64,000 nt of DNA from Corallococcus sp. AS-1-6 (GTDB lineage: Bacteria > Myxococcota > Myxococcia > Myxococcales > Myxococcaceae): NCBI RefSeq assembly GCF_020037015.1, contig NZ_JAIQDE010000022.1:1-64000 (forward strand). Reading direction: 5' to 3'. The notes beneath the pieces were generated by a model. That model saw only the letters and a program-made list of their open reading frames with translations. It was not told the origin of the DNA and ran no database searches. Shown one piece after another: positions 3,544 through 24,268 of this stretch. How positions within the stretch are numbered: position 1 is the first letter of the stretch; every line of letters starts with the position of its first letter. Made by a program: the position numbers and the translations under genes.

Positions 3544-5445
3544 TCACGGCACGTCGACGGCCAGCTTCTGCAGCGCGGACTTCGCGTCCGCATGGTCTGG
3601 CTGCAACTTCACCGCGGCTTCGTACTCCTTCTTCGCCTCGGGCTTGCGGTTGGTGGCCTCCAGGAGCTGCGCGAGCGCGAAGTGCGGCTCGCCGGCGCTC
3701 GCGTCCACCTGCGACGCGCCCCGGAACGCCTTCTCCGCCTCCGGCAGCTTGCCCTGCCGGTACAGCGTGTGCCCCAGGTACAGCAGGCCCAGCGAGTTGC
3801 GCGGCTCCACCGCCAGCACGTCGCTCAGCACCTGGAGCGCCTTGGTGTCGTCACCGCCGCGCAGGTACAGGAAGCCCAGCTCCGCGCGGGCCTCCAACTG
3901 CGCGGGGTCCTTCGCCACCACCGCCTCCAGCTCCGGCACCGCCAGGTCCGGCCGGCCGCGCCGCGAGTGCAGGATGCCCAGCCGCGCCAGCGCCGCCGTG
4001 TCCGCCTCTTCGCCCGCCGCGGGCGTGAGCAGCTTCTCCGCCGCCGCGTAGTCGCCCATCGCGAGCAGCAGGTCCGCCAGGCCCAGCTTCGCCGCGCGGT
4101 GCTTCGGGTCCTCCTGGAGCACGGCCTCGTAGAGGGGCCGCGCCTGGGCGCCCACGTGCTTCTTCGCGTACGCCTCCGCCAGCATCAGCCGGTTCTCCAC
4201 CGTGGGCTGGAGCTTCACGCAGGCCGAGTACTGCGCGATGGCGCCGTCCAGGTCACCCTTGGCCTTGAGCGCGTCGCCGTAGCCCGCGCGCACGCCGGGC
4301 TCGTCCGGGAAGGTCTCCACCGCCGTCTTCAGCGTGGCCAGCGCGTCGTCCACCTTGCCCAGCTCCAGATATGCGCGCGCCAGGCCCTGGTAGGCCTCCG
4401 TCGTCTTCTTGCCGTCGTCGGCGCTCTTCTCGATGGCCTTCTGGAACGCGGACACCGCCTGCGTCTTCTTGCCCTGCGCCAGGTACAACTGGCCCAACTG
4501 CGTGTACGGGCCGCTCGCGCGGCGGGGCTCCAAGAGCAGCGCCTTCTCGAAGGACTTCGTCGCCCGGGCGTTCTCCCCCAACTGGAAGCACGCGAGCCCC
4601 AGGTTGAAGTGCGCCTCCGCGTACTTCGGATCCAACGTGATGGCCTTCTGGAACGCCTCCGCCGCCTTGCGCGCGTTGCCCTGGCCGTCCAGCACCACGC
4701 CCAGGTTGTTCTGCGCGCGCGCGTGCTTGGGGTCCGCCTTCAGCGCCGCCTGGTACTCCGCGAACGCGCCCGTGACGTCGTTCTCCCGCATCAGCACGAC
4801 GCCCAGGTTGTAGTGCGCCTCCGCGTCGCTGTCCTTCTGACGGATGGCCTCGCGCAGCGTCTCCTTCGCCTCCGCGGCCAGCCCCTTCTCCGCCAGCGCC
4901 TTGCCCAGGTTCACCCGCGCCACCTGGAGCCCGCCGTCCAGCTTCAGCGCCTCGCGGTACGCCTCGATGGCGTCGTCCGTGCGGTTCGCGCGCTGGAGCA
5001 CCTCGCCCAGGTTGAAGCGCAGCTCCGCGTCCCTGGGCGACAGCTCCGTCGCCACGGAGTACTGGGTGATGGCCTCGTCCGTGTCGTCCTGGATGCGCGC
5101 CAGCAGGCCGCGCTCCGAGCGCAGCGTGGCCTCCTCCGGGAAGGCCGCCAGCGCCGCGTCCAGCACCGCCTTGGCCTTGGGCACGTCCCCGGACAGCCGC
5201 AGCGCCCGCGCCAGCGCGACCTTCGCGGGGACGCCGTCCGGCGTGAGCCCCACCAGCTTCGTCAGCGGCGCCACCGCGCGGCGCGGCTGGTTCTGCGACA
5301 GGAAGGCCGTGCCCAGCTTGTAGAGCGCGTCCGGGTCGTCCGGGAGCTTGTCCGCGCGCGCGGCGGGCTTCTCCGGCGGAGGTGCCTCCGGAGCGGGAGC
5401 CTGGGCCGTCAACAACTGGAGGAGAAGGACTCCGGCTTTCGTCAT
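3544..5445 (-). CDS. exported tetratricopeptide-repeat (TPR) protein
   Basis: Protein of 633 residues built almost entirely of TPR units. ATG 5445 overlaps the upstream stop in a TGATG arrangement, which fixes the start and implies translational coupling. A weak signal sequence (TKAGVLLLQLLTAQA) and a Pro/Ala linker precede about 15 TPRs with the usual A-x-x-N-L-G pattern (for example AEAHYNLGVV, ARAQNNLGVVLD, AEAHFNLGLA). TPR solenoids scaffold protein complexes. As last gene of an operon encoding an outer-membrane barrel, lipoproteins and an FHA/TonB-like protein, it is probably a periplasmic scaffold of a Glt/Nfs-like trans-envelope machine (inference). Confidence 0.88.
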   Translation of the reverse strand: MTKAGVLLLQLLTAQAPAPEAPPPEKPAARADKLPDDPDALYKLGTAFLSQNQPRRAVAPLTKLVGLTPDGVPAKVALARALRLSGDVPKAKAVLDAALAAFPEEATLRSERGLLARIQDDTDEAITQYSVATELSPRDAELRFNLGEVLQRANRTDDAIEAYREALKLDGGLQVARVNLGKALAEKGLAAEAKETLREAIRQKDSDAEAHYNLGVVLMRENDVTGAFAEYQAALKADPKHARAQNNLGVVLDGQGNARKAAEAFQKAITLDPKYAEAHFNLGLACFQLGENARATKSFEKALLLEPRRASGPYTQLGQLYLAQGKKTQAVSAFQKAIEKSADDGKKTTEAYQGLARAYLELGKVDDALATLKTAVETFPDEPGVRAGYGDALKAKGDLDGAIAQYSACVKLQPTVENRLMLAEAYAKKHVGAQARPLYEAVLQEDPKHRAAKLGLADLLLAMGDYAAAEKLLTPAAGEEADTAALARLGILHSRRGRPDLAVPELEAVVAKDPAQLEARAELGFLYLRGGDDTKALQVLSDVLAVEPRNSLGLLYLGHTLYRQGKLPEAEKAFRGASQVDASAGEPHFALAQLLEATNRKPEAKKEYEAAVKLQPDHADAKSALQKLAVDVP

Positions 5446-6083
5446 CACAGGTTCTCCACGTACGGGCTGGCGCGCGCGTCGAAGGTCTTCTTGGCCAGGG
5501 CGGCCTTCTTCGCCTCCCACGCCTCCTTCGCCGCCTGCGCTTCCTTCGTGTCCCCCCCGAGGTTCGCGCGCTCTTCCTTCACGGCGGCCTCGCACTCGGA
5601 CACCTGCTCCTCGAAATCCTTCGGCTCCAGGCGCTCACTGCCCTGGACCTTCGCCTTGCGCGCCGCCGTCAGCCGCGCCAGCTCGAAGCGGGCGAACGCG
5701 CAGCGCAGCGACAGTTGCTCCACCTCGCGCAGCCCCACGTTGAGGCGCTGGTGCGCGCGCAGGTACTCCACGCGGGCCTCGGACTCCGCGATGGCCAACT
5801 GCGCCACCTCGCGGGACGCCGCGTCCTGCGCGCGGTCCTCCTCGTCCTCGGCGGCCTCCTGGCGGGACTTCGCGCGGCGGATGTTGTCGCGCGCGCGGTT
5901 GATTTCGTTGTCCGCCTCGTCCACCCGGTCGATGGCCAGCGCCAGGTCGTTCTCCGCCTCCAGGAGCTCGATGCGCGTCTCGTACGGCAGCTTCTTCACC
6001 AGCGCGTCCGGCACGCGCATGCCGTAGCTCGGGCCGCAGGCGGCGGTCAGGAGGGACAGGCTGAGGAGCAGGTGGCGCTTCAT
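5445..6083 (-). CDS. coiled-coil lipoprotein of Glt/Nfs-like operon
   Basis: Lipoprotein of 212 residues with lipobox LTAAC (Cys16) directly after a short signal. Nearly all of the rest is charged, heptad-rich helix (residues about 35-190; stretches such as AEDEEDRAQDAASREVAQ), so a long coiled coil or periplasmic rod is expected. ATG 6083 overlaps the stop of the upstream gene by four bases (ATGA). The stop overlaps the next start by one base. No enzymatic motif. It may link outer-membrane and periplasmic parts of the complex, but no named family is recognised. Confidence 0.8.
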   Translation of the reverse strand: MKRHLLLSLSLLTAACGPSYGMRVPDALVKKLPYETRIELLEAENDLALAIDRVDEADNEINRARDNIRRAKSRQEAAEDEEDRAQDAASREVAQLAIAESEARVEYLRAHQRLNVGLREVEQLSLRCAFARFELARLTAARKAKVQGSERLEPKDFEEQVSECEAAVKEERANLGGDTKEAQAAKEAWEAKKAALAKKTFDARASPYVENL

Positions 6084-6583
6084 GGAGCGATGGCCTCGAA
6101 ACGGCTGAAGAGGGTCCGGCCGGAGTAGACGTCGGTGCCGTTGGTGAACGTGACGTTGAACTCGCCCGACACCCGGTCCCCGGTGTTTTTCGGAAGGGAC
6201 TTCACGAAGAGGTTGCCGCGCACGAGCGGCGGGAAGGGACGCACCGGCTCATCCAGCACGCTGCGGTCCACGCTGCCCCGCTGCGAGCCGTCCTCCAGCG
6301 CCTCCGCCAGGTCGATGTCCAGCGAGCCCGCGTACTCGTTGTCCGGCAGCATGTCCGCCACCCGCGCGCTCACCTTCAACACCACGTCCTGCCCGCTGCC
6401 CTGCGTGCTGACGAAGCTCACCGCCAGCGTGCCCTCCGCCAGGGCCGCCTCCGTGCGCTGGTAGCGCAGGTCGATGAGCTCCGACACGCTGCCCTCCACC
6501 CGGCCGCCCTCCTCACCACACGCGGTGGCGACGAGCGCGAACAGCACCGGGGCGATGCGGCGGAGGGGCGCGCTCACTTGCAT
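6080..6583 (-). CDS. small lipoprotein with GSVSEL motif, Glt/Nfs-like operon
   Basis: Lipoprotein of 167 residues. Start ATG 6583 lies inside the end of the upstream gene (10-base overlap), and the stop overlaps the next ATG by four. Lipobox VATAC (Cys22) is followed by GEEGGRVEGSVSELIDLRY and an all-beta domain. A second protein in this window (35085-35636) has the same layout: lipobox, short acidic spacer, then SGSVSEL and a beta domain of similar length. The two are probably distant paralogues. Function unknown; the operon suggests an outer-membrane-attached accessory of the envelope complex. Confidence 0.78.
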   Translation of the reverse strand: MQVSAPLRRIAPVLFALVATACGEEGGRVEGSVSELIDLRYQRTEAALAEGTLAVSFVSTQGSGQDVVLKVSARVADMLPDNEYAGSLDIDLAEALEDGSQRGSVDRSVLDEPVRPFPPLVRGNLFVKSLPKNTGDRVSGEFNVTFTNGTDVYSGRTLFSRFEAIAP

Positions 6584-9500
6584 GCCTTCCACCCCGCGTC
6601 CACGTCCGGGCCGTTGAGCGTGCCCATGTCCTTGAGCACGGCCAGCTCGCGGCGCGCGCCGTCCGTGTCGCCGAAGCGGCAGCGCAGCGCGGCCAGGTTG
6701 AGGCGGGCCTTGTCGTAGGTGGGGTCCGCCTCCAGCGCCTTGGCGTACGCCGCGCGGGCGCCCATGGCATCCCCCAGGTTGAGCATGGCCCAGCCCAGCG
6801 CCGCGTGCGCGGACGCGCGCGTGTCCTGCAATTCCGTCACGCGCCCGAACGTCAGTTGCGCCATGCCGTACTGGTGCGCGTCCAGGTAGCCCATGCCCAG
6901 GGCCTCCAGCGCCTCCGCGGTGAGCACCTTCTCCGCCTTCTTGCGCAGGTCCTCCAGCGCCGCGGGCTGCGTGGGCGCGGCCGGCTGCGGCACCGGCAGC
7001 GCGGCCACGTCCGTGCGGTTGCGGCAACCCACCACCGCCGCGTTGAAGACCTCCAGCGACTCCGCGCGGGACAGGCAGGCCTTGAAGGCTTCGTCCGAGC
7101 GGGCCTTGAGCGGCCCCACCTGCTGCTTCACCGCGTCCTGGAACTGCTTCGTCTCCGCGGCGGACAGCCCGCCGGGCACCGGCGTCTGGTCCACCACGTC
7201 CGCGATGTGGCCGTACGCCAGGGCAATCTTCCACAGCGACGCCACCGCCCACTCCGGATACCCGAGCGACGCGGCCTGCGTGTACACGCCCTCCATGGCC
7301 TGGAGCGCGGCGACCTTCTCCTCCACCTTGTCCGCCGGCAGGTCCTTGTAGCCGCGGTAGAGGATCTCACCCAGGTACCAGAGCCCCTTGGCCGCTTCCT
7401 CCGTCTGGCCGTTGGGGCCCTGCACCGCGGCGGTGAGTGTGGAGATGAGCGCGTCCGGCGGAGCGGTGGGCGCGGTGGTGGCCTGCACCTCCGCGAGCAC
7501 CGCCGCGGCGGCCACGTTGTTCTTGTCCAGCTTGAGCGCGGTCTCCGCCGCCGTCTTCGCGCGCGCGTAGTCCTTCTGCTTCAGGCGCGTCTCGGCGAGC
7601 AGCGCCAGCACCTCGCCCTTGCGCGCGCCCGCGGCCTCCGCCGCCGTCTCCAGGTTGCGGGACGCTTCCTTGTACTCACCCAGCGCGATGCGCAGGCGGG
7701 CGCCGGCCATCCAGCCGTCCACCGACGCCAGGTCGCCCGTCAGCTTCTGGCCCACCTGCTCGAACCAGCCGGCCGCCTCGTTGAAGGCCGCGGCCTCCGC
7801 CGCGTGCCGGCCCAGCGTCAGGAGCACGTCCGACAGGTACTGGCTCTTGGGGTAGGACTGCGCCAGCTTCGCGCCCAGCTCGCGCTCGCGCGGCAGGTCG
7901 CGCTTCTCGCGCGCGGCGGTGAACGCGCCGTAGAGCGCCTTCTCGCCGATGTCGCTGTTCTTGTTCTCGTCCGCGACCTTCATCAGGCCTTCGATGACGT
8001 CGCCCGTCTCCTGCGCGCTCTGCAGGGCCAGCTCGTCCAGGGCCTCGGCCTTGCTTTGCGTGAGGATCTTCTGCACCTCACCCCGGAAGCCGGACGGCAG
8101 CGCGGACGCGAGGAACTTGCGGCCCGTCTCGTCCAGCTTCTTGAAGTCGTTCACCTGCCGCAGGCTGTCCAGGGCCAGGTTGCCCGCCACCGGCGCGTCC
8201 TTGTACTGCGGGTGCGCCAGCGCGAACGCGGTGAACAGCTCCGCCGCCTTCGGGTACTCGCCGTCCTCGTAGTAGGCGCGCGCGATGTTGAACTTCACGT
8301 CCAGCACATGCGGGCTCTGCGGGAAGCGCGACACGTAGGAGGCGCCCAGCAGCTTCAGCGCCTGCCGCGCGTCCGCCACCTCGAAGGCGTTGCGCTTCTG
8401 CGCCTCCTCCGGCTTGAGCGTGGAGAAGTGGGCCAGGAGCGCGCCGTACATGGCGGTGTCCACGGCCTTGCCGTCCTTCGCCTTGTCCTCGTAGCGGGCC
8501 AGCTCCTCGAACTGGCGCGCGGCCTCCGGGAACTCCTTGGCGGCGAAGAGCGCGTCCGCGCGGTTCTTCATGATGGGCCGCACGTACTGCTCCGGCCGGA
8601 ACAGCCCCAGGTACTCGCGGTAGGCGTCCGCGGCCTTCAGGTACAGCTCGCGCGAGTCCGCCTTCTGCGCGGCCAGGTGCACCTGCGTGGACAGGTCGCG
8701 CGCCATCTCCTCCGTCTCCGCGAGCTGCTTCTTGCGGTCGGACTCCGACATCTCCGGGTCCGTCTTGCTCTGCACCGCGGCGCGCACCAGGAAGCGGATG
8801 TCCTCCGGCTCCGGGCTCACCTTGCCCTTGGCGGCCTTGAGCGAGTCGTACAGCTTCTGGGCCCGCTCCAGGTCCATCTCCGGGTCGGGCTGCACTTCCA
8901 TCAGCTTGCGCAGCGTGGGGATGGCCCACTCGTACTGCTGCTTGATGAAGTAGCGGTTGCCCAGCTTGTCCAGCGCGAGCGCGTACGTGGCGCGGCTGTC
9001 GCTGAGCTTCTCGAAGTAGTTGAGCGCGCCCTTGGGGGGCTTGGCCTCCGTGTAGCTGTAGACCAGGTCCAGCAGGGCCTCGCGCTTGACGTTGAGCGCC
9101 TTCTTCACGTCCACGCCGGGCAGGGGCGCGCTGGCGGCCGCCGCCTCGAAGAACGTGACGGCCTCCGCGTGCTTGGCCTGGTTCACGCGAATCCAACCCA
9201 TCTTGTAGCGGGCCAGGTCGTGCACCGGCGACGGCGGCAGCTCCAGGATGGCCTGGTAGTGCTTCTCCGCTTCGACGAGGTCCGCCTTGTCGAAGAAGTG
9301 GTCGCCGAGAATCTGTTCGGCCTCCAGGCGCAGCGGGCTGTTGGGGTACTTGCGCGTCAGGTCCCCCAGCGTCTTGAGCATCTCGTCGAACTGGCCCAGC
9401 TCGCGCTGCTCGTGCGCCAGGTAGAACGTCACCTGGTCCCCGTCCTTGAAGTCCGGGTACTCGCGCAGCAGGCGGTAGTACATCTGCACCGCCTTCTGCT

Positions 9501-9843
9501 TCATCAGGCGCGTCTCCGGGGAGACGATGGCACCCGTGGCGCCCTCCGGCCGGGACTCCGCCTGGAGGTAGTACACGTAGCGGCTCTTCTCCACGTAGAG
9601 CTCCGCCAGCCGGAACTGCAGGTCCGGCAGGTACGGGGCGTTGCGGCTCTTGGAGATGAGCTTCTCCGTCTCTCCGATGGCGCGGTCCACCTTGAAGATG
9701 TCGCGCTTGAGCTTGGCGATGAGCTCCTCGCGCTCCTTCGCCTTGGACACGATGGGGTTGGTGTTGGGCCCTACGCGGCCAGGGCCGGGGGCCGCGGCCG
9801 CGAGCAGCGCGGCGGTGATGAGGCCGGTGAACGGGCCGGTCAT
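6574..9843 (-). CDS. large exported TPR protein of Glt/Nfs-like operon
   Basis: Protein of 1089 residues. ATG 9843 overlaps the upstream stop (ATGA); the frame stays open further upstream, but that part is only Arg/Pro-rich antisense-like sequence. A short signal (GPFTGLITAALLAAAAPGP) precedes many degenerate TPR/helical repeats (LQFRLAELYVEKSRYVYYLQ, ARYKMGWIRVNQ, DVKFNIARAYYEDGEY). Canonical TPRs lie near the end (AHAALGWAMLNLGDAMGARAAY). Size and content resemble the long periplasmic TPR components of the Myxococcus Glt and Nfs systems. It probably acts as a periplasmic scaffold between the inner-membrane FHA/TonB-like protein and the outer-membrane barrel; this is inferred from the operon. 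Confidence 0.87.
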   Translation of the reverse strand: MTGPFTGLITAALLAAAAPGPGRVGPNTNPIVSKAKEREELIAKLKRDIFKVDRAIGETEKLISKSRNAPYLPDLQFRLAELYVEKSRYVYYLQAESRPEGATGAIVSPETRLMKQKAVQMYYRLLREYPDFKDGDQVTFYLAHEQRELGQFDEMLKTLGDLTRKYPNSPLRLEAEQILGDHFFDKADLVEAEKHYQAILELPPSPVHDLARYKMGWIRVNQAKHAEAVTFFEAAAASAPLPGVDVKKALNVKREALLDLVYSYTEAKPPKGALNYFEKLSDSRATYALALDKLGNRYFIKQQYEWAIPTLRKLMEVQPDPEMDLERAQKLYDSLKAAKGKVSPEPEDIRFLVRAAVQSKTDPEMSESDRKKQLAETEEMARDLSTQVHLAAQKADSRELYLKAADAYREYLGLFRPEQYVRPIMKNRADALFAAKEFPEAARQFEELARYEDKAKDGKAVDTAMYGALLAHFSTLKPEEAQKRNAFEVADARQALKLLGASYVSRFPQSPHVLDVKFNIARAYYEDGEYPKAAELFTAFALAHPQYKDAPVAGNLALDSLRQVNDFKKLDETGRKFLASALPSGFRGEVQKILTQSKAEALDELALQSAQETGDVIEGLMKVADENKNSDIGEKALYGAFTAAREKRDLPRERELGAKLAQSYPKSQYLSDVLLTLGRHAAEAAAFNEAAGWFEQVGQKLTGDLASVDGWMAGARLRIALGEYKEASRNLETAAEAAGARKGEVLALLAETRLKQKDYARAKTAAETALKLDKNNVAAAAVLAEVQATTAPTAPPDALISTLTAAVQGPNGQTEEAAKGLWYLGEILYRGYKDLPADKVEEKVAALQAMEGVYTQAASLGYPEWAVASLWKIALAYGHIADVVDQTPVPGGLSAAETKQFQDAVKQQVGPLKARSDEAFKACLSRAESLEVFNAAVVGCRNRTDVAALPVPQPAAPTQPAALEDLRKKAEKVLTAEALEALGMGYLDAHQYGMAQLTFGRVTELQDTRASAHAALGWAMLNLGDAMGARAAYAKALEADPTYDKARLNLAALRCRFGDTDGARRELAVLKDMGTLNGPDVDAGWKACK

Positions 9844-11453
9844 GGGGTTTCCTCGATGCAACGGCTCTCGATGCGGACCCGGTAGGACTTGAGCTCGTCG
9901 TTCCAGTATTCGTTGTCGAACTTGAAGGCGACCTGCGCGGGCGACAGCAGCTCTTCCTCCTGCGCCGCCACCACCTGCGCGCCCTTCTTCACGCGCTCGT
10001 ACAGCTTGAGGCCGACCTCGTACTCCATGAGGCGCACCTGCTCCGCGGCGCGCAGCAGCGTGTCCGCCTCCTGGCGCACGGCGTCCTGCAGCCGCGCGTC
10101 GTACACGCGCACGGCCTCCGCGTGGGACAAATCGTAGACGCGCGTCAGGTGCCCGAAGAGCCGGTCGCCGAAGCTGCCGGCGTAGCGGCCCAGGCGCTCG
10201 CCCTCCAGGTCCAGCAGGGCCACGAACTTCGCGGCGCGCTGGGTGCCGCCGTGCGCGTTGGCGGCGCGGCGCAGGCGCACGTCCTGGCTCAGGTCCTCGC
10301 GGTTGCGCACGGACTCCAGCGAGTCCGCGTACCGGCGCGTCAGCTCCTTCGCCGCGCGCTTGGCGGGCAGGTAGTGGCACAGGTCGCGGAAGATGAGCGC
10401 GCGCAAGAGGTACTTGTCCGGCATGAACTCATCGCGGAAGGACGGCGCGTCCAGCGTGGTGAGGATGCCCAGCGCCGCGCGCAGGTCGCCCAGCTTGTAG
10501 CGGGTCCACGCCTCCTCCAGGTAGAGGCTGGCGCGGCCGGGGTCCAGCTCCGGCAGCTTCACCTTGCTGTACGCGTCCAGCGCGCCGGTGAAGTCCTTCT
10601 TCTCGTAGCGCAGGCGGGCCACCGCGAGCGCCGCCTCGTTGCGCGCCTCGCGGGTGAGCTTCTCGTCCTGGGACAGGCCGAGGAAGTCCTTCACCATCTC
10701 CTCCGGCGGATCCTTCACCTGCTTGAGCCGGGTGACGAGCAGCGCGAACTTCGCGCGGCTCGCCTCCGCGCTGGTCTCCGGCAGCTTGGAGAAGTGCGTG
10801 TTGGCCCAGCGCTCGTTGCCCACGCGCAGGTCCACCAGGCCCTGCTGGTAGTGCGCGTAGGCGCCCGTCTCGTCCGGGAGGAAGCCCAGGTCGAGCGCGC
10901 CGAAGACCTGCTCGTCGATCATCACCTCGTCGTGCGGCCGGTCCGTCAGCCCCTTGAGCGCGTCCAGCGCGCGCGGCAGCACGTTGGGGTTGGAGCGCTC
11001 GCGCGCGATGCGCGCCAGGTACGTGGCGCCCGCGTGCGTGAGGCCCAGGTCGATGAGGCTCCGCGCGAGGAAGTACTGGCCCCACGCGTAGTTGTCATCC
11101 GTGCGGGGCGTGGCCTGGAGCCACGCGTACAGCGGGCCCGCGGCGTCGCGCGGCTTGCCGTCGAAGTAGGCCTTGAGCGCGTTGTCGAAGGTCTCCGGCG
11201 GCACCTTCTGCGGCGGGGGCGGAGGCGCCTCCGCGACGGCGGCCCTGGCGGGGGCGGGCGTGCCGGCGGCGGTGCCCGCGTCCGTGGGGCCGGGGGTGCC
11301 CGCGTCCGTGGGGGCGCCCGCGGCCTTCGCGGCGGCGGCCGGTGGGGGTGGCATGGGCAGCGTGCCCGCGTCCGGCGCCGCCCGGGCGACCGTCGGGGAC
11401 ACGAGGAGCGCGGCGCTGGCGAGCGCGGCGACGATGAGGGGGCGTGACGTCAT
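9840..11453 (-). CDS. exported helical-repeat protein of Glt/Nfs-like operon
   Basis: Protein of 537 residues with a good signal peptide (IVAALASAALLVSPTVARA). An Ala/Pro/Asp-Gly-rich linker (repeated TDAGT) runs to about residue 80, followed by an alpha-helical solenoid. Repeat-like pieces include YFLARSLIDLGLTHAGATYLA, NEAALAVARLRYEKKDF and LYLEEAWTRYKLGDLRAALG, which are TPR-like. The C-terminal 150 residues are charged helices ending in YWNDELKSYRVRIESRC. Both ends overlap neighbours by ATGA. Likely a periplasmic component that works with the 1089-residue TPR protein encoded just downstream; no enzymatic motif seen. Confidence 0.82.
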   Translation of the reverse strand: MTSRPLIVAALASAALLVSPTVARAAPDAGTLPMPPPPAAAAKAAGAPTDAGTPGPTDAGTAAGTPAPARAAVAEAPPPPPQKVPPETFDNALKAYFDGKPRDAAGPLYAWLQATPRTDDNYAWGQYFLARSLIDLGLTHAGATYLARIARERSNPNVLPRALDALKGLTDRPHDEVMIDEQVFGALDLGFLPDETGAYAHYQQGLVDLRVGNERWANTHFSKLPETSAEASRAKFALLVTRLKQVKDPPEEMVKDFLGLSQDEKLTREARNEAALAVARLRYEKKDFTGALDAYSKVKLPELDPGRASLYLEEAWTRYKLGDLRAALGILTTLDAPSFRDEFMPDKYLLRALIFRDLCHYLPAKRAAKELTRRYADSLESVRNREDLSQDVRLRRAANAHGGTQRAAKFVALLDLEGERLGRYAGSFGDRLFGHLTRVYDLSHAEAVRVYDARLQDAVRQEADTLLRAAEQVRLMEYEVGLKLYERVKKGAQVVAAQEEELLSPAQVAFKFDNEYWNDELKSYRVRIESRCIEETP

Positions 11454-12085
11454 TCCGTGGCGCCGAAGTTGAAGGCCGTCCCAATCTGCACGGTGGGCAC
11501 GTTGATGATGCGCGACGCGCCCGCGAAGACGGTGTTGTTGGTCACGTCCAGCCGGAAGGACACGTTCTGGCTGGAGAACAGGCGCACGCCCAGGCCCAGG
11601 TTGACGGCGGGGCGGAAGCCGTCGCTGCGGTCCACCTTCACCACCGTGCCGCCGGCCAGCAGGAAGACCTCGAAGTGCAGGACGTTGGCGTTGAGGAAGG
11701 ACGTCTTGCCGTACAGCGGGCTCCACATGAGGTCGCTGCCCACCATCCACTGCACCTGGTCCTCGAAGGCGGTGGCGGTGGGGGCCGCGTCGAAGTCGCG
11801 CTCCAACTGGCGGCGCAGGCTGGTCTGCACGTTGTAGCTGTACGTGCCGCGGCCCACCTGCCACGCGACGGTGTCGCTGAAGTGGTACGTGTATCCGACG
11901 GTGCCGATGAGCCCCTTGTAGAAGGCGTCCGCGGGCAGCACGCCCACGCCGAGCGAGAGCTCGTGGTGCATGCGGAAGAGACGGTCCTGCACCGCGGAGA
12001 CGGTGCCGGGGTTCTCGAGTTCCTCGGCCTGGGCGCGCGCGAGGCCGGGCACCAGGCACAGGAGGGAGAGCAGGAGGAATCGCAC
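11450..12085 (-). CDS. outer-membrane beta-barrel protein, Myxococcus OMP family
   Basis: Protein of 211 residues starting with GTG 12085 (AGGA about nine bases upstream) and a signal peptide (RFLLLSLLCLVPGLARAQA). The mature part shows the myxobacterial outer membrane beta-barrel family pattern. An N-terminal VQDRLFRMHHELSLGVGVLP is followed by alternating amphipathic strands with Gly/aromatic turns (TVGYTYHFSDTVAWQVG, NLGLGVRLF), ending in IGTAFNFGATE. About eight strands are expected. The same family occurs in the Glt and Nfs gene clusters. It is probably the outer-membrane part of the machine encoded by this operon. The stop overlaps the next ATG by four bases. Confidence 0.85.
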   Translation of the reverse strand: MRFLLLSLLCLVPGLARAQAEELENPGTVSAVQDRLFRMHHELSLGVGVLPADAFYKGLIGTVGYTYHFSDTVAWQVGRGTYSYNVQTSLRRQLERDFDAAPTATAFEDQVQWMVGSDLMWSPLYGKTSFLNANVLHFEVFLLAGGTVVKVDRSDGFRPAVNLGLGVRLFSSQNVSFRLDVTNNTVFAGASRIINVPTVQIGTAFNFGATE

Positions 12086-12144
12086 GGGGACTTTTTCCTG
12101 TCAGGAGGCGGGGAACGACGTGGGGTGGGGGAGGCGTCCCCGCG

Positions 12145-14787
12145 TCAGTAGCCGACCGAGTTGAAGAGGAACGGATACGTGATGATGACCTGGCCGCCCT
12201 TGGGGGCTGGGAACTGCCAGCCCTTCAGGCTGCTGAGGATGCACGCCTCGACGGAGGCGTTGCGGAGGGTGGAGGACTTCGTCTTGGCGGAGGCGACGCG
12301 GCCGTTGAGCCCGATGGCCCACTCCAGCACCACCTTGCCGGCGAGGCCGGGGTCCTTGAGCAGCGCGCGTTCGTAGCAGCCGTGCACCTCATTGAGGTGG
12401 CTGTTGATGACCTTGGCCACGGCTTCGCGGTCCACGGTGCCCTGCGTGGAGGAGATGCTGCGCGCGGTGGCGCGCGTGACGGTGCCGCCCACCGCGCCCT
12501 TGCCCACGCCGCCCGCGCCCAGCGCGCCAATGCCGCCGCCGCCCTTGCCGCGCAGCAGCTCCGCGCCCAGGGTGGCGCCGCCGCCCTTGCCGCCGCCGCC
12601 CAGGCCGAAGGTGCCCAGGCCCGCGTTGGCGATGGGCGCCTTTCCGATGAGGCCCGCGAGCTTGTAGTTGGTCTGCTTGGCGTTCTTGCTGCCCGGGCCG
12701 CTGCCCAGCTTGTCCACGGCGGCCAGCAGGTCGTTGGCGGCGGGGCCCGCGGCGGACAGCTTCGCGAGCGCCTTGAGGGCCTTGCTCTCCGGCGCGGCAG
12801 CCACGGCCTTGGGGACCTGCACTTCCTTCACGGGCTTGGGCGGCGCCTTCTCCGCGACGACGGGCTTGTCCTTCGCGGGCTCCTTCTTCTTGAGCGTCTC
12901 GAGCTTCTTCTTCGCCTCTTCCTTCTTCTTGGGCTCGGGGGCGATGAGGCGCAGCGCGACGGGCGGGAGGTTCTTCTGGGTGAAGTCCGCGGTCGCGGGG
13001 CCCTGGGGGCGGGTGGCGATGAACCAGCCCAGGCCGCCGCCGAAGATGGCGAGGAAGAAGAGGGTCAGCCAGGGCAGGCCCTTGAGCGGGTTGACGAAGA
13101 TGCGCTCGGGGGCGGGGGCCGCGTAGGCGACGAGCGACATCTTGCCCTGGGTGAGGCGGGCGGCGGCGCCGTCGCGCAGGGTGACGAAGCGGCGGCTGCC
13201 GTCGGACTCGAGCGCGGCGGTGGTGACGGGGGCGAAGCGGCCGTCCCCGTTCGCCTTCTCCACGTCGGTGCCGGGGGGCACGAAGAGGCGGTAGTTGCCG
13301 TTGACGGACTCGGCGAGGGTGAAGTCGTCACCTTCGGGGAGGGAGAAGCCCCACAGCGGCATGGGGGCCAGCTCGTCCACGGCGGCCTTCACGGGCTTCT
13401 TCGCGTCCGGGGTGAAGCGGCGCGCGTCGCGGCGCACGGCGCCCCAGTACAGCTCCAGGTAGAGCTGGGCCGCGCCCTTGCCCGGGCCGATCCTCGGCGC
13501 GTGCGTGGGGCGGCTGGCCGGGGCCGCGTCGAGGACGAGGGGGCCGGAGGTGGGCGCGGTGACGTCCGTGTCCACGTCCGCGAGCAGGTCGTCCGCGACG
13601 AGGAGGCTGGGCATGGCCTCCGAAGGAGGACGGCGCCGGGTGGAGGGGACGGTGCCCGCGGGAACGGCGGGAGCAGGAGCCGGCTTCGAGGCCGAGGGCT
13701 GCGCATGCGAGGCCTGTTGCCCGTGAGCCGCCTTCGCGGCCTGCTGCTGGGCATGGGCGGCCTGCTGCGCCAGTGCGGCCTGCTGGGCCTGCGGCTGCGC
13801 GTATGCGTTTTGCTGAGCCTGTTGCTGTGCGTATGCGGCCTGCGCCTGCTGCTGCGCGAGCGCGCCCTGCTGGGCCTGCTGCTGCGCGTGTGCGGCCTGC
13901 TGCTGGGCATAGGCGGCCTGCTGGGCCTGCTGCTGCGCATATGCGTTCTGCTGGGCCTGCTGCTGCGCGTATGCGGCCTGCTGAGCCTGTTGCTGTGCGA
14001 GCGCGGCTTGCTGAGCCTGTTGCTGTGCGAGCGCGGCTTGCTGAGCCTGTTGCTGTGCGAGCGCGGCTTGCTGGGCCTGCTGCTGTGCGAGTGCGGCCTG
14101 TTGAGCGTGCTGCTGCGCGAGCGCGGCTTGTTGCTGCGCGTGTGCGGCCTGCTGGGCCTGCGCGGTTCGCTGTGCCTGCTGCTGGGCGTAGGCGGCCTGC
14201 TGCGCCTGCTGTTGTGCCAGCGCGGCCTGCTGAGCCTGCTGCTGCGCGTAGGCGGCCTGCTGGGCCTGCTGTTGTGCCAGCGCGGCCTGTTGCGCGAGCG
14301 CGGCTTGCTGCGCGTGCGCGGCCTGCGCGCCGTGCTGGGGCGCGAAGCCATTCGCGGGCCCGAACGCGTGCGTCGCTCCGTTGCCACCATTCACGGGCGC
14401 GGCGGGCGGAGCCCCCGCACCTCCCAGGAGCGCGGCGACCTCTGGCGGCGGCTGCGGCTTGGTCTCGACGGGACGCTGGTTGAGGATCCGCGTCTTCAGG
14501 ACGAACGGCCCGCACAGCACCTCGTCCACGGAGCGGATCTCACAGGCGGTGACCTGGTGCCCGTTGACGAAGACGCCGCTGGTGCCTCCGCCCGCGTCCT
14601 GGATCGCGGTGCGGCCATTCTGGAAGTACAGCAGCGCATGGCGCGGCGACACGGCCGCGTCGTCCAAGCGCAGATCCGACGACGCATCGGAGCCGAGCGC
14701 GTACGTGCCGGGGACGAAGACCTCCGTCCCCACCAGGAGGCCGTCGCGGAGGATGACGACTTGCAGGACGCTGGGCTGGCCGCTCAA
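12145..14787 (-). CDS. FHA / Ala-Gln repeat / TM / AgmX-PglI-tail envelope protein (GltG-like)
   Basis: Protein of 880 residues, start TTG 14787 with GGGAG eight bases upstream. Order of parts: cytoplasmic FHA domain (about 10-110; LGSDASSDLRLDD, SPRHA, GTSGVFVNG), Ala/Gln repeat (about 150-365), a globular region, one transmembrane helix (about 570-590; PWLTLFFLAIFGGGLGWFI), a Lys/Glu/Pro stretch, a Gly-rich stretch, and a TonB-like C-terminal domain (about 778-880; TVDREAVAKVINSHL, GCYERAL, ASVEACILSSLKGW). This matches the AgmX/PglI C-terminal family and the layout of GltG/NfsG in Myxococcus, where such proteins carry force or signals from inner to outer membrane. The long Ala/Gln tract is the unusual part. 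Confidence 0.88.
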   Translation of the reverse strand: MSGQPSVLQVVILRDGLLVGTEVFVPGTYALGSDASSDLRLDDAAVSPRHALLYFQNGRTAIQDAGGGTSGVFVNGHQVTACEIRSVDEVLCGPFVLKTRILNQRPVETKPQPPPEVAALLGGAGAPPAAPVNGGNGATHAFGPANGFAPQHGAQAAHAQQAALAQQAALAQQQAQQAAYAQQQAQQAALAQQQAQQAAYAQQQAQRTAQAQQAAHAQQQAALAQQHAQQAALAQQQAQQAALAQQQAQQAALAQQQAQQAALAQQQAQQAAYAQQQAQQNAYAQQQAQQAAYAQQQAAHAQQQAQQGALAQQQAQAAYAQQQAQQNAYAQPQAQQAALAQQAAHAQQQAAKAAHGQQASHAQPSASKPAPAPAVPAGTVPSTRRRPPSEAMPSLLVADDLLADVDTDVTAPTSGPLVLDAAPASRPTHAPRIGPGKGAAQLYLELYWGAVRRDARRFTPDAKKPVKAAVDELAPMPLWGFSLPEGDDFTLAESVNGNYRLFVPPGTDVEKANGDGRFAPVTTAALESDGSRRFVTLRDGAAARLTQGKMSLVAYAAPAPERIFVNPLKGLPWLTLFFLAIFGGGLGWFIATRPQGPATADFTQKNLPPVALRLIAPEPKKKEEAKKKLETLKKKEPAKDKPVVAEKAPPKPVKEVQVPKAVAAAPESKALKALAKLSAAGPAANDLLAAVDKLGSGPGSKNAKQTNYKLAGLIGKAPIANAGLGTFGLGGGGKGGGATLGAELLRGKGGGGIGALGAGGVGKGAVGGTVTRATARSISSTQGTVDREAVAKVINSHLNEVHGCYERALLKDPGLAGKVVLEWAIGLNGRVASAKTKSSTLRNASVEACILSSLKGWQFPAPKGGQVIITYPFLFNSVGY
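13720..14330 (-). repeat. Ala-Gln tandem repeat tract in the FHA/TonB-like gene
   Basis: About 600 bases of imperfect repeats encode units such as AQQAALAQQQ and AQQAAYAQQQ, roughly 200 residues almost free of other amino acids. Adjacent copies (for example around 13980-14060) are nearly identical at DNA level, which suggests recent slippage or unequal crossing-over. The tract probably forms a long helix or flexible cytoplasmic tether between the FHA domain and the membrane. Confidence 0.9.
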
Positions 14788-14826
14788 CGGTGACGCTCCC
14801 TTCGAGGGGTGATGGGCGGTACGGCC

Positions 14827-15237
14827 CTACTGATCGTAGACGGTGGCGAGCGTCTCCGAGCGGAAGCTGTCGCGCTCGCGAAGCATCGACCGCGTCTTCA
14901 ATTCCTTGCGGTCATACAGATACACGGCGCCGGACTTGTTCGTCTGGCCCTGGATGAGGCGGTCGTCGAAGTCGATGCGCGACGGGCCGCGCTGCGGCGG
15001 CGCCGACGTCGCGGCGGCCGAGGCATCCCCCGTCACCGGATCCGTGACGGCCGTGCTCGACTTCGTCTCAATGCGAGGCGGCGCCTTGCTCGAGCCCTTC
15101 TTGGCCTTGGGTGCCTTCGCGGCCTTCGTCTTGGAGGCGCGTGCACGCCCCTGGGCCCAGGCATCGTTCGCGGGGGAGAGGGGACCGAAGCCGAGCACGC
15201 TGGCGACGGCACAGAAGAGAAGGAAACGTCGCATCAT
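14827..15237 (-). CDS. small basic exported protein heading the Glt/Nfs-like operon
   Basis: Protein of 136 residues. ATG 15237 (or the next codon, ATG 15234) gives a signal peptide (RRFLLFCAVASVLGFGPLS...AWAQG). It is followed by a Lys/Ala-rich basic segment and a C-terminal conserved-looking part (RIDFDDRLIQGQTNKSGAVY). No Shine-Dalgarno sequence is seen. A TTGACA-containing promoter places the predicted transcript start at the ATG itself, so this may be a leaderless message. It lies 39 bases upstream of the FHA gene on the same strand and is probably the first gene of the operon. No family recognised; a periplasmic accessory is likely. Confidence 0.72.
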   Translation of the reverse strand: MMRRFLLFCAVASVLGFGPLSPANDAWAQGRARASKTKAAKAPKAKKGSSKAPPRIETKSSTAVTDPVTGDASAAATSAPPQRGPSRIDFDDRLIQGQTNKSGAVYLYDRKELKTRSMLRERDSFRSETLATVYDQ

Positions 15238-15272: not shown

Positions 15273-15503
15273 CGCACACTCCAGCCCCATGGCGCGGGCC
15301 GTGGGGATCATGTGTGGGGGGCAGTCCACCTCACCTGGGGCGGACGCTCCACGACGCGTCCTGCTTCGTGCCGGGATGCTGGAAACGTCCCGTGGGACTC
15401 CCTCCGCGCGGCGCCTCCCGACCATGCGAGCAGACGTGGTGAGAAGTCATCGTGACACGGTGGGCGGATGGAGGATGCTCGCGCGCGGGAGGACTGCACA
15501 CGC

Positions 15504-17813
15504 GTGATACCTGTCACTCGCCATCGGGGATGGATCGCGGCGGCGCTCGGAGCCCTGGTGCTCCTGGGCCTGGGGCTCTTCGCGTTGAAGCCCCAGCGCG
15601 CTCCAGCGCCCACACCGCCCACCGCGCCCGCCGGGCCGCGCCCCATCCTCCAGGCGGTGGGGCCGAAGCTGACCAGCAACCAGACCTCGCAGCCGCTCTC
15701 CGTCTACGGAGAGAACCTGGTGCCGGGCCTGCGGCTGGTGCTCGGGGCGCCCCTGTCACGGGAGGTGCCGCTCACGGTGGTGGACGCGCGCCATGGCTAC
15801 GCGAGGCTCCCCCCCGACCTCAAGCTCCCCGAGGGCACCTTCCAGACGGACGTGCAGTTGTCGCTCGCCGCGACCGGCCCAAGGCCCACGGGCACCGCGC
15901 GGCTCACCCTGGTCAACGACGCGGCCTTCCCGGACTTGACGGCGACGGCGCTGTCCCCGGACGGGCGCACGCTCTTCGTCGCGTCGCCGCCCACGGACAC
16001 GGTGTTCGCGCTGGACGTGGCGTCCGGGCGCGTGGAGGCGATGGCGGTGGGAGACGGGCCGTCGGCGCTCGCGACCTGGAAGGACGCCAGCGGCCGTCCC
16101 TGGCTGGGCGTGGCCCATCGGTATGGCGCGGAGCTCTGGCTGTACGCGCTGGACGCGCCGGAGCGGAAGGCCCGCGTCGTCCCCGCGCCCCGGGGCGTGT
16201 GGGGCCTGGAGGTGGACGGAGCGAAGGGCGTGGCCTTCGTCGCCGAGCACCTGCGCGACACGGTGCACGCGCTCGCGCTGGAGGATGGCCGCGAGCAGTG
16301 GCGCGCGGCCGTGGATCCGAACCCGCGCGCGATGGCGCGGTGGAACGGGCTGCTCGCGGTGGGCAGCCTCCAGACGGGGCAGGTGGTGCTGCTGCGCCAG
16401 GATGACGGCCGGGAGCTGGCGCCGGTGGTTCCGAAGCCCGGCGTCCCCATCATCGGGGGCGCCACGGAGGACTTCTCCGCGCAGGTGATGGGCGGCAAGG
16501 CGCCGCGCGCCCTGGTCGCGAGCGACCGCCTGAAGCGCCTCTTCATGTCGAGCCTGGGGCCGAACGTGGGCCCCAACGCCCAGCGCATGGAGGTGAGCGC
16601 GAACAGCGGCGTCGCGGTGCTGGACCTGGACCGGCAGCAGGTGGTGCGGCACCGGGGCTTCGGCGCGGGCGTGACGGAGGGGCTGGCGCTGGATGACCGC
16701 GCCGGGCTGCTCTACGCGGCGGACGTGGGCCTGGGCCAGGTGCGGGTGCTGGACGCGAAGGCGCTGGTGAAGAGCGACGCGGCGGCGCGCGAGGCGGTGC
16801 TCCAGACGCTGCCGGTGCCCGCGCCGGAGGGCACGCCGTGGATCCGCCCGGCGGAGGACCTGGGGACGAAGGGCAGGGCGGGGCTGGAGCTGCACTCCGG
16901 GCCGCGCTCGCTGGCGCTGTCCCCGGACGGGCGCACGCTCTACGTGCTCAACCGCTTCACGGGCACGGTGGCGGTGGTGGACGTGAGCGAGGCGCGCGCG
17001 GGCAGGGCGCGCGTGGCGCGGCAGTGGCCGGTGGTGGACGTGCGCTCGCGAGAGCAGCGCCGGCTGGGCCAGGTGCTCTACTTCACCGACGTGGGGCGCA
17101 CGGGCATGAGCTGCGACGCGTGCCACATCGAAGGGCACACGGGCGGCGTCTTCTTTGAAAAGACGCGCCCCATGCGCATCTACCGGTCCACGACGGCCCT
17201 GGGTAGCCGGGACACGCCGCCCTACTTCACGCCCGCGAGCACGCGCAGCATCGCGGAGACGGCGGAGACGGTGGGGGGACGCAACCGCTACCACAACCCG
17301 GATCCGCTGCCGTCGGAGGTGGAGGCCCTGGCGCTCTACACCTCGCTCCTGCCCACACCGCCCAACCCCTACCGGGGAGAGGGCGGCGCGCCGCTGGAGA
17401 CCGTCACGTTGCCGGACGGAAGGACCGGCCACCCGGTGAAGGGGCTGGCGCTCTTCGAAGGGAAGGCCCGGTGTCTGGCCTGCCACCCCGCGCCCCTCTT
17501 CACGCTGGACCAGGACCCCGCGACGCGGGGCCAGTACCAGGACGTGGGCACGCCCATCGCGTTGCCGCTGCGCCTGGAGCAGCAGCAACTGGTGACAGGC
17601 GCGGCGCCGCCCTCGCTGGTGGGCACCTGGGACGTGTGGCCCCTGCTGACGAGTGCCACGGCGGGCTACGCGGTGCAGGAGGACCGGCTCGTGGTGGGCT
17701 CCCGCTTCCCGCTGCGCACGCTGCTGGAGACCCCAGGCCTGAACCACGGCGCCGCGCAGGAACTCAGCGCCGAAGAGCGGGACGACCTGCTCGCGTACCT
17801 GCTCACGCTGTGA
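15504..17813 (+). CDS. membrane-anchored beta-propeller / di-heme cytochrome c protein
   Basis: Protein of 769 residues if started at GTG 15504 (GGGAGG about eleven bases upstream); ATG 15468 is in frame and possible. One N-terminal hydrophobic segment (GWIAAALGALVLLGLGLFAL) anchors it with the rest outside. The middle holds YVTN/NHL-type propeller repeats (TALSPDGRTLFVASPPTDTV, SLALSPDGRTLYVLNRFTGT). The C-terminal third has two heme-binding CxxCH motifs, CDACH at about 537 and CLACH at about 657, as in di-heme cytochrome c peroxidase/MauG relatives. Expected to bind two c-type hemes in the periplasm. Substrate unknown. A same-design protein lies at 43123-45171. Confidence 0.8.
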   Translation: MIPVTRHRGWIAAALGALVLLGLGLFALKPQRAPAPTPPTAPAGPRPILQAVGPKLTSNQTSQPLSVYGENLVPGLRLVLGAPLSREVPLTVVDARHGYARLPPDLKLPEGTFQTDVQLSLAATGPRPTGTARLTLVNDAAFPDLTATALSPDGRTLFVASPPTDTVFALDVASGRVEAMAVGDGPSALATWKDASGRPWLGVAHRYGAELWLYALDAPERKARVVPAPRGVWGLEVDGAKGVAFVAEHLRDTVHALALEDGREQWRAAVDPNPRAMARWNGLLAVGSLQTGQVVLLRQDDGRELAPVVPKPGVPIIGGATEDFSAQVMGGKAPRALVASDRLKRLFMSSLGPNVGPNAQRMEVSANSGVAVLDLDRQQVVRHRGFGAGVTEGLALDDRAGLLYAADVGLGQVRVLDAKALVKSDAAAREAVLQTLPVPAPEGTPWIRPAEDLGTKGRAGLELHSGPRSLALSPDGRTLYVLNRFTGTVAVVDVSEARAGRARVARQWPVVDVRSREQRRLGQVLYFTDVGRTGMSCDACHIEGHTGGVFFEKTRPMRIYRSTTALGSRDTPPYFTPASTRSIAETAETVGGRNRYHNPDPLPSEVEALALYTSLLPTPPNPYRGEGGAPLETVTLPDGRTGHPVKGLALFEGKARCLACHPAPLFTLDQDPATRGQYQDVGTPIALPLRLEQQQLVTGAAPPSLVGTWDVWPLLTSATAGYAVQEDRLVVGSRFPLRTLLETPGLNHGAAQELSAEERDDLLAYLLTL

Positions 17814-20854: not shown

Positions 20855-21101
20855 GGTCTTGCTCCTTGGGGATTGAACTGCATGGGCAATGTCTTTCCCC
20901 TCCCCGAAATCGGAACCATCCCGGTAAGACCAGGATTCTGTTGGGAGCTGATTCCAGGCGGGATGTGGACATTCCAGCCGGATTGGCGGCGAGCATTTCT
21001 TGGCGGGGACGAAGGGATGGGCGCGGTGTCGGGGGCCTCACGCGGCGCCGCCCTCGGGTCGCTTGCGTTGGAAGGGGGGGCTGAGGTCTACAATCCAACG
21101 G

Positions 21102-22790: not shown

Positions 22791-22909
22791 CCACACCCAT
22801 CCTGTAGCAGTCGCTTCCGCACGCATAACCCCTTGAAGTTCCTGACCCTGAAACTCCTACAGACGCGGGATCGCCTCTTGCTAGGGCGGGGGTTGTGAAA
22901 GGAGTCACC

Positions 22910-24232
22910 ATGACGATTGGTCGCATTGCCCCCATGTTGGCGCTCGGAGCCTTCCTGGTGCTGAGCCCCCGCACCGTGCAGGCCCAGGAGCAGAACCCGG
23001 ACAACCCGGAGTGCCTCGGAGATGAGTGCGGTCGCCCCAAGGAGGAGGGCGGCGGCTGCGGTTGTGGCTGCGGCTGTTCCGTCTGGGTGGCGTACACGGA
23101 CGACGGCAAGACGCTGTCGTACACGGACGACGCGGACGGCGACGGCAAGGCGGACGACAAGGACAACTGCCCCTTCACGTCGAACCGCGACCAGACGGAC
23201 GGTGACGGCGACCTCGCTGGCGACGCCTGCGACAACTGCGCGGCCGTCTCCAACGCCACGCAGTTGGACACCGACGGTGACGGCATCGGTGACGCGTGCG
23301 ACCCGGACGACGACAACGACGGCAAGCCGGACGGCGAGGACAACTGCCCCTCCATCCCGAACGCCACCCAGGCGGACAACGACGGGGACGGCATTGGCGA
23401 CGTCTGTGACGACGACGACGACAACGACGGGCGCAAGGACGGCGAGGACAACTGCCCGCTCATCGCCAATGAGAACCAGCAGCTCCCGGCGGACGTGAGC
23501 GCGTGCCGCGTGGACGCGGACGGCGACAACGTCTCCGACAACCTGGACAACTGCCCCGGCCTGTCCAACCCGGACCAGAAGGACACCAACGCCAACGGCA
23601 TCGGCGACGCGTGCGACCCGGACATCGACGGTGACTCGGTGCTCAACACCGCGGACAACTGCCCGGCGGTGGCCAACCGCGACCAGGCGGATGACGACGG
23701 CGACGGCCTGGGCGACGCGTGCGACACGCGCTACTGCGTGGTGCTCAACAAGGACAACCCCAACGACTGCCTCGACCCGAAGTCGCCCTTCAGCGTGGGC
23801 ACCGGCGGCGTCATCAGCGTGGAGAAGACGGGCATGGCCGTGCGCCCGCCCCTGTTCGCCAACCGCAACGGCGCGGCCATCGAGTACACGTGGACGGTGG
23901 TGAAGCGTCCCTCCGGCTCCACCGCGGTGGTGGAGAACCCCAAGGGCGCCGTCACCTACAGCCGCCACTGGGAATACCAGTACGTGGACGGCAGCGTGCC
24001 CAACTTCCAGCCGGACAAGGAAGGCGAGTACGAACTGCAGGTGTCCACGCGCCTGGCCTTCGCGGACCGCGTGTTCCCCGACCAGCGCGCCTCCGTGTCC
24101 AGCCTCTTCGTGAAGGTGGGCAAGGACGACAACTCCGGTGGCGGCTGCACCTCGCTGCCCGCGGGCGGGAGCGTCGCGGCCCTGGGCGCTGGCGTGCTCG
24201 GCCTGCTGCTGCGCCGCCGCAAGAAGGCGTAA
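22910..24232 (+). CDS. mtsC: thrombospondin-3 repeat protein with MYXO-CTERM sorting tail
   Basis: Protein of 440 residues with AAAGGAG five bases before ATG 22910 and a signal peptide (APMLALGAFLVLSPRTVQAQ). A Gly-Cys cluster (GGGCGCGCGCS, about residues 45-55) precedes a long run of thrombospondin type 3 repeats (DGDGKADDKDNCP, DTDGDGIGDACDPDDDNDGKPDGEDNCP). These should bind many calcium ions and form disulfides. A beta domain follows, and the C-terminus has GGGC, a hydrophobic helix (AALGAGVLGLLL) and RRRKKA, a MYXO-CTERM signal processed by myxosortase for surface anchoring. From memory, NCBI uses the name MtsC (cell-cell cohesion MYXO-CTERM protein) for such a gene, so the symbol is tentative. 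Confidence 0.8.
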   Translation: MTIGRIAPMLALGAFLVLSPRTVQAQEQNPDNPECLGDECGRPKEEGGGCGCGCGCSVWVAYTDDGKTLSYTDDADGDGKADDKDNCPFTSNRDQTDGDGDLAGDACDNCAAVSNATQLDTDGDGIGDACDPDDDNDGKPDGEDNCPSIPNATQADNDGDGIGDVCDDDDDNDGRKDGEDNCPLIANENQQLPADVSACRVDADGDNVSDNLDNCPGLSNPDQKDTNANGIGDACDPDIDGDSVLNTADNCPAVANRDQADDDGDGLGDACDTRYCVVLNKDNPNDCLDPKSPFSVGTGGVISVEKTGMAVRPPLFANRNGAAIEYTWTVVKRPSGSTAVVENPKGAVTYSRHWEYQYVDGSVPNFQPDKEGEYELQVSTRLAFADRVFPDQRASVSSLFVKVGKDDNSGGGCTSLPAGGSVAALGAGVLGLLLRRRKKA

Positions 24233-24268
24233 AGAGAGATGTCCCCCATGCCAGGAGGTCCGCATCGC

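Follow-up and report, generated by a model that had tools for sequence, protein, structure and literature searches.

A G5-type Glt/Nfs-like operon of Corallococcus sp. AS-1-6 and its possible link to the neighbouring Mts cohesion locus

Which trans-envelope machine is encoded by an operon near the left end of a Corallococcus contig, and on what might that machine work? The stretch analysed here (the window) comprises 64,000 nucleotides of Corallococcus sp. AS-1-6 (NCBI RefSeq assembly GCF_020037015.1, contig NZ_JAIQDE010000022.1, positions 1 to 64,000). Its minus-strand operon at 3544-15237 had been predicted to encode a paralogue of the Glt (gliding) and Nfs (spore coat) machines of Myxococcus xanthus, of unknown task, with no motor, Exo or Agl genes nearby. 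Our analysis identifies it, by elimination among the gene copies of the genome, as the Corallococcus copy of the published M. xanthus cluster G5 (MXAN_1327). It may form the trans-envelope part of a G5 machine serving the cell-cell cohesion proteins (Mts) of the neighbouring locus, a function that we regard, from gene content and inheritance, as an even bet.

We found four GltD homologues in this 9.5 Mb genome and four in M. xanthus AM003, and likewise four GltC homologues in each. Among the GltD copies of Corallococcus, that of contigs C2 and C81 belongs to Glt (over the model cut-off), the one on C6 is of Nfs type (assigned by elimination and by its single-cluster layout), the one on C16 adjoins mglB and mglA, and the one on C14 is that of the window. 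In M. xanthus the GltD genes are MXAN_4870 (Glt), MXAN_3374 (Nfs, G3), MXAN_1922 (G4) and MXAN_1327 (G5), and the function of G4, G5 and the motor M2 is given as unknown (PMC3169522; Luciano et al. 2011). Since mglA and mglB are MXAN_1925 and MXAN_1926 (PMC3441718), G4 must be the copy linked to mgl, which by elimination leaves G5 for the window copy. In the single-contig genome G051 (of the genus of AM003), G5, G4, M2 and AglR lie at 1.57, 2.33, 3.54 and 8.16 Mb, positions proportional to the locus tags 1327, 1922, 3003 and 6862.

A maximum-likelihood tree of 19 GltD sequences groups the window copy with that of M. xanthus G5 and eleven more in one clade (13 sequences, support 100/100), separate from Glt, Nfs and G4. 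The original prediction had asked whether the operon branches as a third clade; run on GltD, this check places it outside the Glt and Nfs clades (100/100), which bears out a paralogous Glt/Nfs-type machine. The GltC, GltE, GltG and GltF/CglF homologues of the operon all stay below the Glt equivalog cut-offs, and the true GltG and GltC are found elsewhere in the same genome (1083 and 1061 bits). These scores and the separate GltD clade rule out that the operon is Glt or Nfs itself. The paralogue is not new: as the orthologue of G5 it was already recorded in 2011 (PMC3169522), so it cannot be called an unrecorded system. As a side observation, MXAN_1327 is among the genes that PMC10196010 gives as raised during co-culture with prey; it is assigned there to a Tad-like pilus, a label that looks wrong for the G5 gltD.

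All eight minus-strand genes were confirmed at the predicted place (g1 to g8 in Table 1), and the listed parts were matched by models. The gaps are +39 (g1-g2) and +59 (g2-g3), followed by overlaps only (-4, -4, -10, -4 and -1), which agrees exactly with the prediction that translational coupling is missing only around the first two genes. The GltG homologue g2 carries an FHA domain (Pfam, 39.5 bits; cut-off 20.7) and an AgmX/PglI tail that corresponds to myxo_SS_tail (115.7 bits; cut-off 40), and scores 177.8 bits with the NCBIfam GltG model (cut-off 650); the transmembrane (TM) segment together with the TonB-like tail is an Agl-type trait. The CglF model of NCBIfam matches g1 weakly (27.8 bits, cut-off 90, residues 77-133), and the C-terminal box of g1 recurs in distant homologues. 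The barrel g3 scores 127 bits with TIGR04565, the myxobacterial outer-membrane barrel model (cut-off 60); by hhalign it is of the GltB (99.3%) or GltA (98.7%) type, and an assignment as GltH is ruled out (5.4% vs 99.3% for GltB). The NCBIfam models of GltC and GltE give 82.9 bits for g4 (cut-off 450) and 106.8 bits for g8 (cut-off 225). Pfam TPR matches are found in g5 and g8, and hhalign pairs g8 with both GltE and NfsE at 98.9%, a score that TPR repeats alone are able to yield.

The two lipoproteins, g6 and g7, match none of the Glt and Nfs proteins compared (profile comparison by hhalign), nor one M. xanthus GltK. In a PDB search with the structural model of g6 (predicted local distance difference test, pLDDT, 86.3), no match was better than E 0.16. 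The model of g7 (pLDDT 86.5) is a long helical hairpin, whose nearest structures are BAR-type bundles and other helical proteins with weak matches (Z up to about 11, no more than helical models commonly give). The N-termini were judged by eye for signal peptides and for lipoboxes (TACG in g6, TAACG in g7). The operon content is thus a core (C, D, E, F, G and A/B) plus two lipoproteins. The Glt component set claimed for it stands as far as this core goes; GltH, GltI, GltJ and GltK were not found among the eight proteins (GltI judged by size only; the GltJ model matches just the tail of g2), and the two lipoproteins lack a counterpart.

The eight-gene order is kept in 25 named myxobacterial loci, for the genes within the fetched stretches, which speaks against a chance arrangement. 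There are two exceptions: g2 was unseen by tblastn in L008 though the DNA is present, and g1 is missing in L028, where the contig starts 934 bases before the g2 match. The g5 protein is 99% identical in Corallococcus interemptor, 98% in C. exercitus and 84% in M. xanthus AM003, and the latter has all eight genes in the same order. We note that one record, titled 'Comamonas sp. KCTC 72670' (L023), has a Myxococcus-like G5 operon (85%) and looks misnamed. Many distant G5 operons have two tandem g3-type barrels (e.g. L097+L098, L135+L136), like GltA and GltB; this genome has one g3-type barrel and genome G190 of the same family two. About 90 bases downstream of g8, on the same strand, lies a gene for a LamG-domain secreted protein (2742-3455, minus strand), which follows g8 in 7 of 8 Corallococcus loci (one partial) and in 0 of 17 other loci.

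The neighbourhood, from which no task had been read, points to one: the mts cohesion locus (21000-30358) lies divergent from the operon in the same window. This locus, with MtsC and MtsD, is credited to Zhang et al. 2007 by PMC11980579, which cites MtsC (there spelled MstC) as a protein that takes part in cohesion, S-motility and development. Synteny with M. xanthus AM003 extends over the whole block, up to the lipoprotein gene at the far end of mts. The product of this last gene is paralogous to g6 (the two are 27% identical, and an alignment of 14 sequences has 12 invariant columns), which ties the operon side of the block directly to the mts side.

We tabulated presence and absence by hand in 193 Myxococcota genomes, an even sampling of the phylum, with E-value cuts that were set after viewing the gaps in the hit lists (G5 1e-60, MtsD 1e-10, M2 1e-50, G4 1e-100, AglR 1e-79). 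The G5 GltD and MtsD are both found in 110 genomes and both absent from 79, with G5 only in one and MtsD only in three (kinship ignored; G169 was scored MtsD-positive on a weak hit, 1.8e-18). One of the three, G067, is rejected as a true exception: g1 and the start of g2 stand at the end of its mts contig, which ends inside g2, so its G5 was lost to assembly. The two genes also co-vary within genera (both present/both absent: 2/4 in genus g17, 1/1 in g30 and 2/1 in g80). They are at most 30 kb apart in 14 of the 16 positive one- or two-contig genomes, and 70 and 119 kb apart in the other two. Outside Myxococcaceae (hereafter the family), the fetched G5 stretch contains mts-family genes in 12 of 27 loci. 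Beyond the family 31 genomes have G5, and these loci represent 27 of them (G042, G043, G144 and G193 were left out); 9 of the first eleven had been chosen for MtsD on the same contig; most mts hidden Markov models were built from 2 to 3 sequences (mtsX from 13), and a 15-bit mtsD hit in G018 was left uncounted. Near-constant co-inheritance and usual adjacency with mts suggest that G5 works with these adhesins.

Shared ecology could link G5 to mts as well, if G5, like Nfs, were a transporter of surface polysaccharide. Nfs and Glt have been proposed as sugar-polymer carriers (PMC3858216), and the GMC dehydrogenase and Gluconate_2-dh3 protein of the block could act on sugars. We consider this improbable: among the 143 genomes of the order, agreement with MtsD is much lower for M2 (113), G4 (112) and AglR (93) than for G5 (141), the physical linkage of G5 and mts spans classes, and the split within genus g17 also argues for a closer bond.

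A motor for the machine was sought next to G5. None had been noticed near the operon, and the whole contig of the window (163,646 bases) contains no MotA/ExbB-family gene; the seven hits of the genome (E <= 0.001) are on other contigs. Outside the family, an ExbB-ExbD-ExbD set is found in the fetched G5 stretch of 8 of the 27 loci (G006, G014, G021, G032, G036, G040, G059 and G095), directly beside the operon in seven and at the far end of the block in G095. The G5-linked ExbB proteins form a clade of their own in a tree of 34 ExbB (96/98; AglR clade 87/68), and again (90/99; AglR 83/73) in a second tree that includes C20, an ExbB of this genome absent from the first. By this phylogeny, the motor of some G5 machines is of a third kind. 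None of the seven ExbB-family genes of this genome falls in that clade, so the machine here would need a borrowed motor or a passive role. Clusters that combine core and motor have precedents in Gammaproteobacteria and Geobacter (PMC3169522).

The orphan motor M2 (MXAN_3003-5) can be assigned on the same trees. In Myxococcaceae it nests inside the G4-linked motors (97/97; 100/98 with C20), and M2-type motors sit inside the G4 operon in 10 of 10 distant loci (L115-L122, L133 and L134, chosen for G4 and M2 hits on one contig). In the 143 genomes G4 and M2 agree in 138 (104/1/4/34), and G5 and M2 have no association outside the family (3/3/19/23). These results suggest that M2 is the displaced motor of the mgl-linked G4. 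That M2 is simply the G5 motor is rejected, as M2 tracks G4 and sits in the ten distant G4 operons.

In the boldest reading, G5 and Mts make up a third Agl-type machine, proton-driven, which would pull or move integrin-like VWA/TSP3 adhesins for active cohesion; it would once have had its own motor and would now, in Myxococcaceae, borrow M2 of G4 or AglRQS. We give this reading a probability of roughly one in three. In the main reading, our even bet, a proton-driven ExbB/ExbD motor would act on the inner-membrane protein g2, and the TonB-like tail of g2 would work both on the box of g1 and on the repeat proteins of the periplasm (g4, g5 and g8). The latter, with the barrel g3 and the lipoproteins g6 and g7, would hold, expose or move MtsC, MtsD and their paralogues. 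Cells would then grip neighbours rather than the ground, with force or energy from the inner membrane reaching cell-cell contacts. The parts have precedents in Glt: GltG and GltJ end in TonB-like tails and GltF contains a stretch resembling a TonB box (PMC9389320), and the VWA adhesin CglB is brought to the surface and kept there by Glt (PMC13104615). This chain of parts is retained in the G5 operon (g2, g1, g4, g5, g8 and g3), whose constant partners are surface proteins with TSP3 repeats and, for MtsD, a VWA-like domain.

The machine of this genome would, like Nfs with AglRQS, rely on the motor of another machine (M2 or AglRQS), or else be a passive platform. That G5 shares M2 with G4 in Myxococcaceae, in the way that Glt and Nfs share AglRQS, is a special case of the proposed machine that we hold tentatively, on the unlikely side. 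Five G5-linked motors are closer to M2 than to AglR in 4/5 comparisons of ExbB and 5/5 each of the first and the second ExbD, and the rooted ExbB tree joins the G5-linked motors to the G4/M2 clade, not to AglR (93/86). M2 is found in all 80 G5-positive genomes of the family except G191 (79% complete), but AglR, too, is found in all but G161 (85% complete); since both are near-universal there, presence is not decisive. Moreover, M2 is kept in six genomes with G4 and no G5 (G162, G166, G170, G174, G178 and G180, a weak M2 hit), which argues that it is not there for G5 alone. In a 2013 study MXAN_3003 gave negative results with both NfsG and GltG.

Alternatively, G5 could be a passive platform that exports or anchors the Mts adhesins, with a motor in some ancestors and none in Myxococcaceae. 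The lack of any member of the G5-linked motor clade in this genome would fit such a platform, as would the allegiance of M2 to G4 and its lack of association with G5 outside the family, and deletion of M2 leaves motility and sporulation unchanged (PMC3169522, PMC3858216). Against it, g2 retains the FHA domain, the TM segment and the TonB-like tail, GltG being the contact of AglR in Glt, and Nfs likewise has no linked motor yet is driven by AglRQS (both PMC3858216). On balance we think a passive platform rather unlikely.

Several observations weigh against a G5 machine that serves Mts. The strongest is that a polar mutant of MXAN_1327 had no motility defect 'at any appreciable level' (PMC3169522, where polar mutations in MXAN_3374 and MXAN_1922 likewise had no effect on motility); because MtsC reportedly takes part in S-motility, a defect in it would be expected if G5 were essential for Mts. 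G5 may be dispensable in that motility assay, or may act on part of Mts function only. Of the distant loci, 19 out of 27 showed no linked motor (some lie on short contigs), and none was seen in this genome or in the three other family loci read. G5 occurs without MtsD in G189 (86% complete), and MtsD without G5 in G020 and G027 (75% complete), for which no excuse is known. The co-occurrence counts are uncorrected for phylogeny, and MtsD hits in distant genomes often span part of the query, and some of them may be other proteins of TSP3/VWA type. The same mutant could also mean that G5 is a redundant or decaying copy with no function; this is very improbable, as the open reading frames are intact, their order is kept in the loci reached, and g5 is 84% identical to its M. 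xanthus counterpart and 98-99% to those of near relatives.

The remaining genes of the block are given in Table 1 with the coordinates of all features. The MtsD model of NCBIfam gives 1303 bits for mtsD (NF047639; cut-off 800) and 87.5 bits for mtsX; Pfam finds TSP3_bac in both, and VWA_2 in mtsD just below the cut-off (25.9 vs 27 bits). The model of the gliding adhesin CglD matches mtsX (30.6 bits), mtsD (39.8 bits) and mtsY (40.4 bits) weakly (cut-off 400). The gene mtsZ is kept in M. xanthus, G120, G070, G190 and G098, and homologues of u1 are found in the blocks of G006, G095, G190 and G003; the SdpB/HTTM protein was undetected in the M. xanthus block. The GMC and dh3 genes recur in the blocks of G006, G021, G095, G039, G014 and G003. 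Together with the haem-c propeller protein u1 they possibly form a sugar or polymer dehydrogenase tied to cohesion.

Table 1. Coordinates of the operon, the neighbouring block and the M2 motor gene (window positions unless a contig is given)
Feature	Positions	Strand	Description
g8	3544..5445	-	exported TPR protein, GltE/NfsE-like
g7	5445..6083	-	helical-hairpin lipoprotein without Glt/Nfs counterpart
g6	6080..6583	-	lipoprotein without Glt/Nfs counterpart; paralogue at 35085-35636
g5	6574..9843	-	GltD homologue, exported TPR protein, G5 clade; orthologue of MXAN_1327 by elimination
g4	9840..11453	-	GltC homologue, exported helical-repeat protein; 1 of 4 GltC homologues in the genome
g3	11450..12085	-	outer-membrane beta barrel, GltB/GltA type
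g2	12145..14787	-	GltG homologue: FHA, Q/A-rich linker, TM, AgmX/PglI (TonB-like) tail
g1	14827..15237	-	GltF/CglF-like small exported basic protein; conserved C-terminal box
u1	15468..17813	+	beta-propeller protein, two CxxCH (haem c) motifs; divergent from operon, conserved block
SdpB/HTTM	18842-20194	-	SdpB/HTTM-family membrane protein between G5 operon and mts
mtsX (name coined here)	21000..22739	+	MtsD-like TSP3-repeat lipoprotein
mtsC	22895..24232	+	cell-cell cohesion MYXO-CTERM protein MtsC; NCBIfam NF047638, 606 bits (cut-off 350)
mtsD	24239..26254	+	cell-cell cohesion protein MtsD, VWA-like and TSP3 lipoprotein
mtsY (name coined here)	26212..28041	+	MtsD-like TSP3 lipoprotein; NCBIfam MtsD 154 bits (below cut-off)
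mtsZ (name coined here)	28058..30358	+	large lipoprotein after mtsY
GMC	31392..33074	-	GMC oxidoreductase, Pfam GMC_oxred_C/N; conserved block
dh3	33041..33694	-	Gluconate_2-dh3 (dehydrogenase small-subunit) protein, Pfam 103.8 bits; conserved block
lipoprotein	33769..35088	+	lipoprotein of conserved block
g6-like	35085..35636	+	lipoprotein, paralogue of g6, far end of mts block
M2 motor gene	C22:84055-84414 (L079)		M2 motor gene of this genome

Three points are new here: G5 is linked with mts, the G5-linked motors form a third clade, and M2 is assigned to G4. None of them was found in the open-licence literature as searched by title or abstract start; part of the G5 gene order may already be in the supplementary figures of PMC3169522. 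The data suggest partners for two orphans: the Mts cohesion proteins for G5, and the mgl-linked G4 for M2. If true, one machine family would carry out three tasks (gliding, spore coat and cell cohesion), and myxobacterial cohesion would be a candidate for active, motor-driven adhesion.

The closest known system is the M. xanthus G5 cluster, an orthologous operon with the same eight genes in the same order in AM003; its account in the excerpted text of PMC3169522 makes no mention of mts, of a G5-linked motor or of the two lipoproteins. Glt shares homologues of GltC, GltD, GltE, GltF, GltG and the GltA/B barrel, and the neighbours of G5 are weakly CglD-like; unlike Glt, the operon has a separate GltD clade, two extra lipoproteins and none of H, I, J and K found in it. 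With Nfs it shares the core, the one-operon layout and the lack of a motor on its contig (in this genome), and differs by its separate GltD clade, by having no NfsH-type barrel and by one A/B-type barrel instead of two. G4 (MXAN_1922, mgl-linked) with M2 has a core of the same family and the motor clade nearest to the G5-linked motors, but belongs to another clade and neighbourhood and has the M2-type motor in the operon of ten distant loci. The core of Gammaproteobacteria and Geobacter (gltD, E, G and C with aglR, Q and S; PMC3169522) has core and motor clustered, like the eight distant G5 loci, and is set apart by its description, which in the same excerpts includes no mts, GltF or A/B barrel. 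The mts locus, finally, is a set of surface-protein genes, distinct from the trans-envelope machine encoded beside it.

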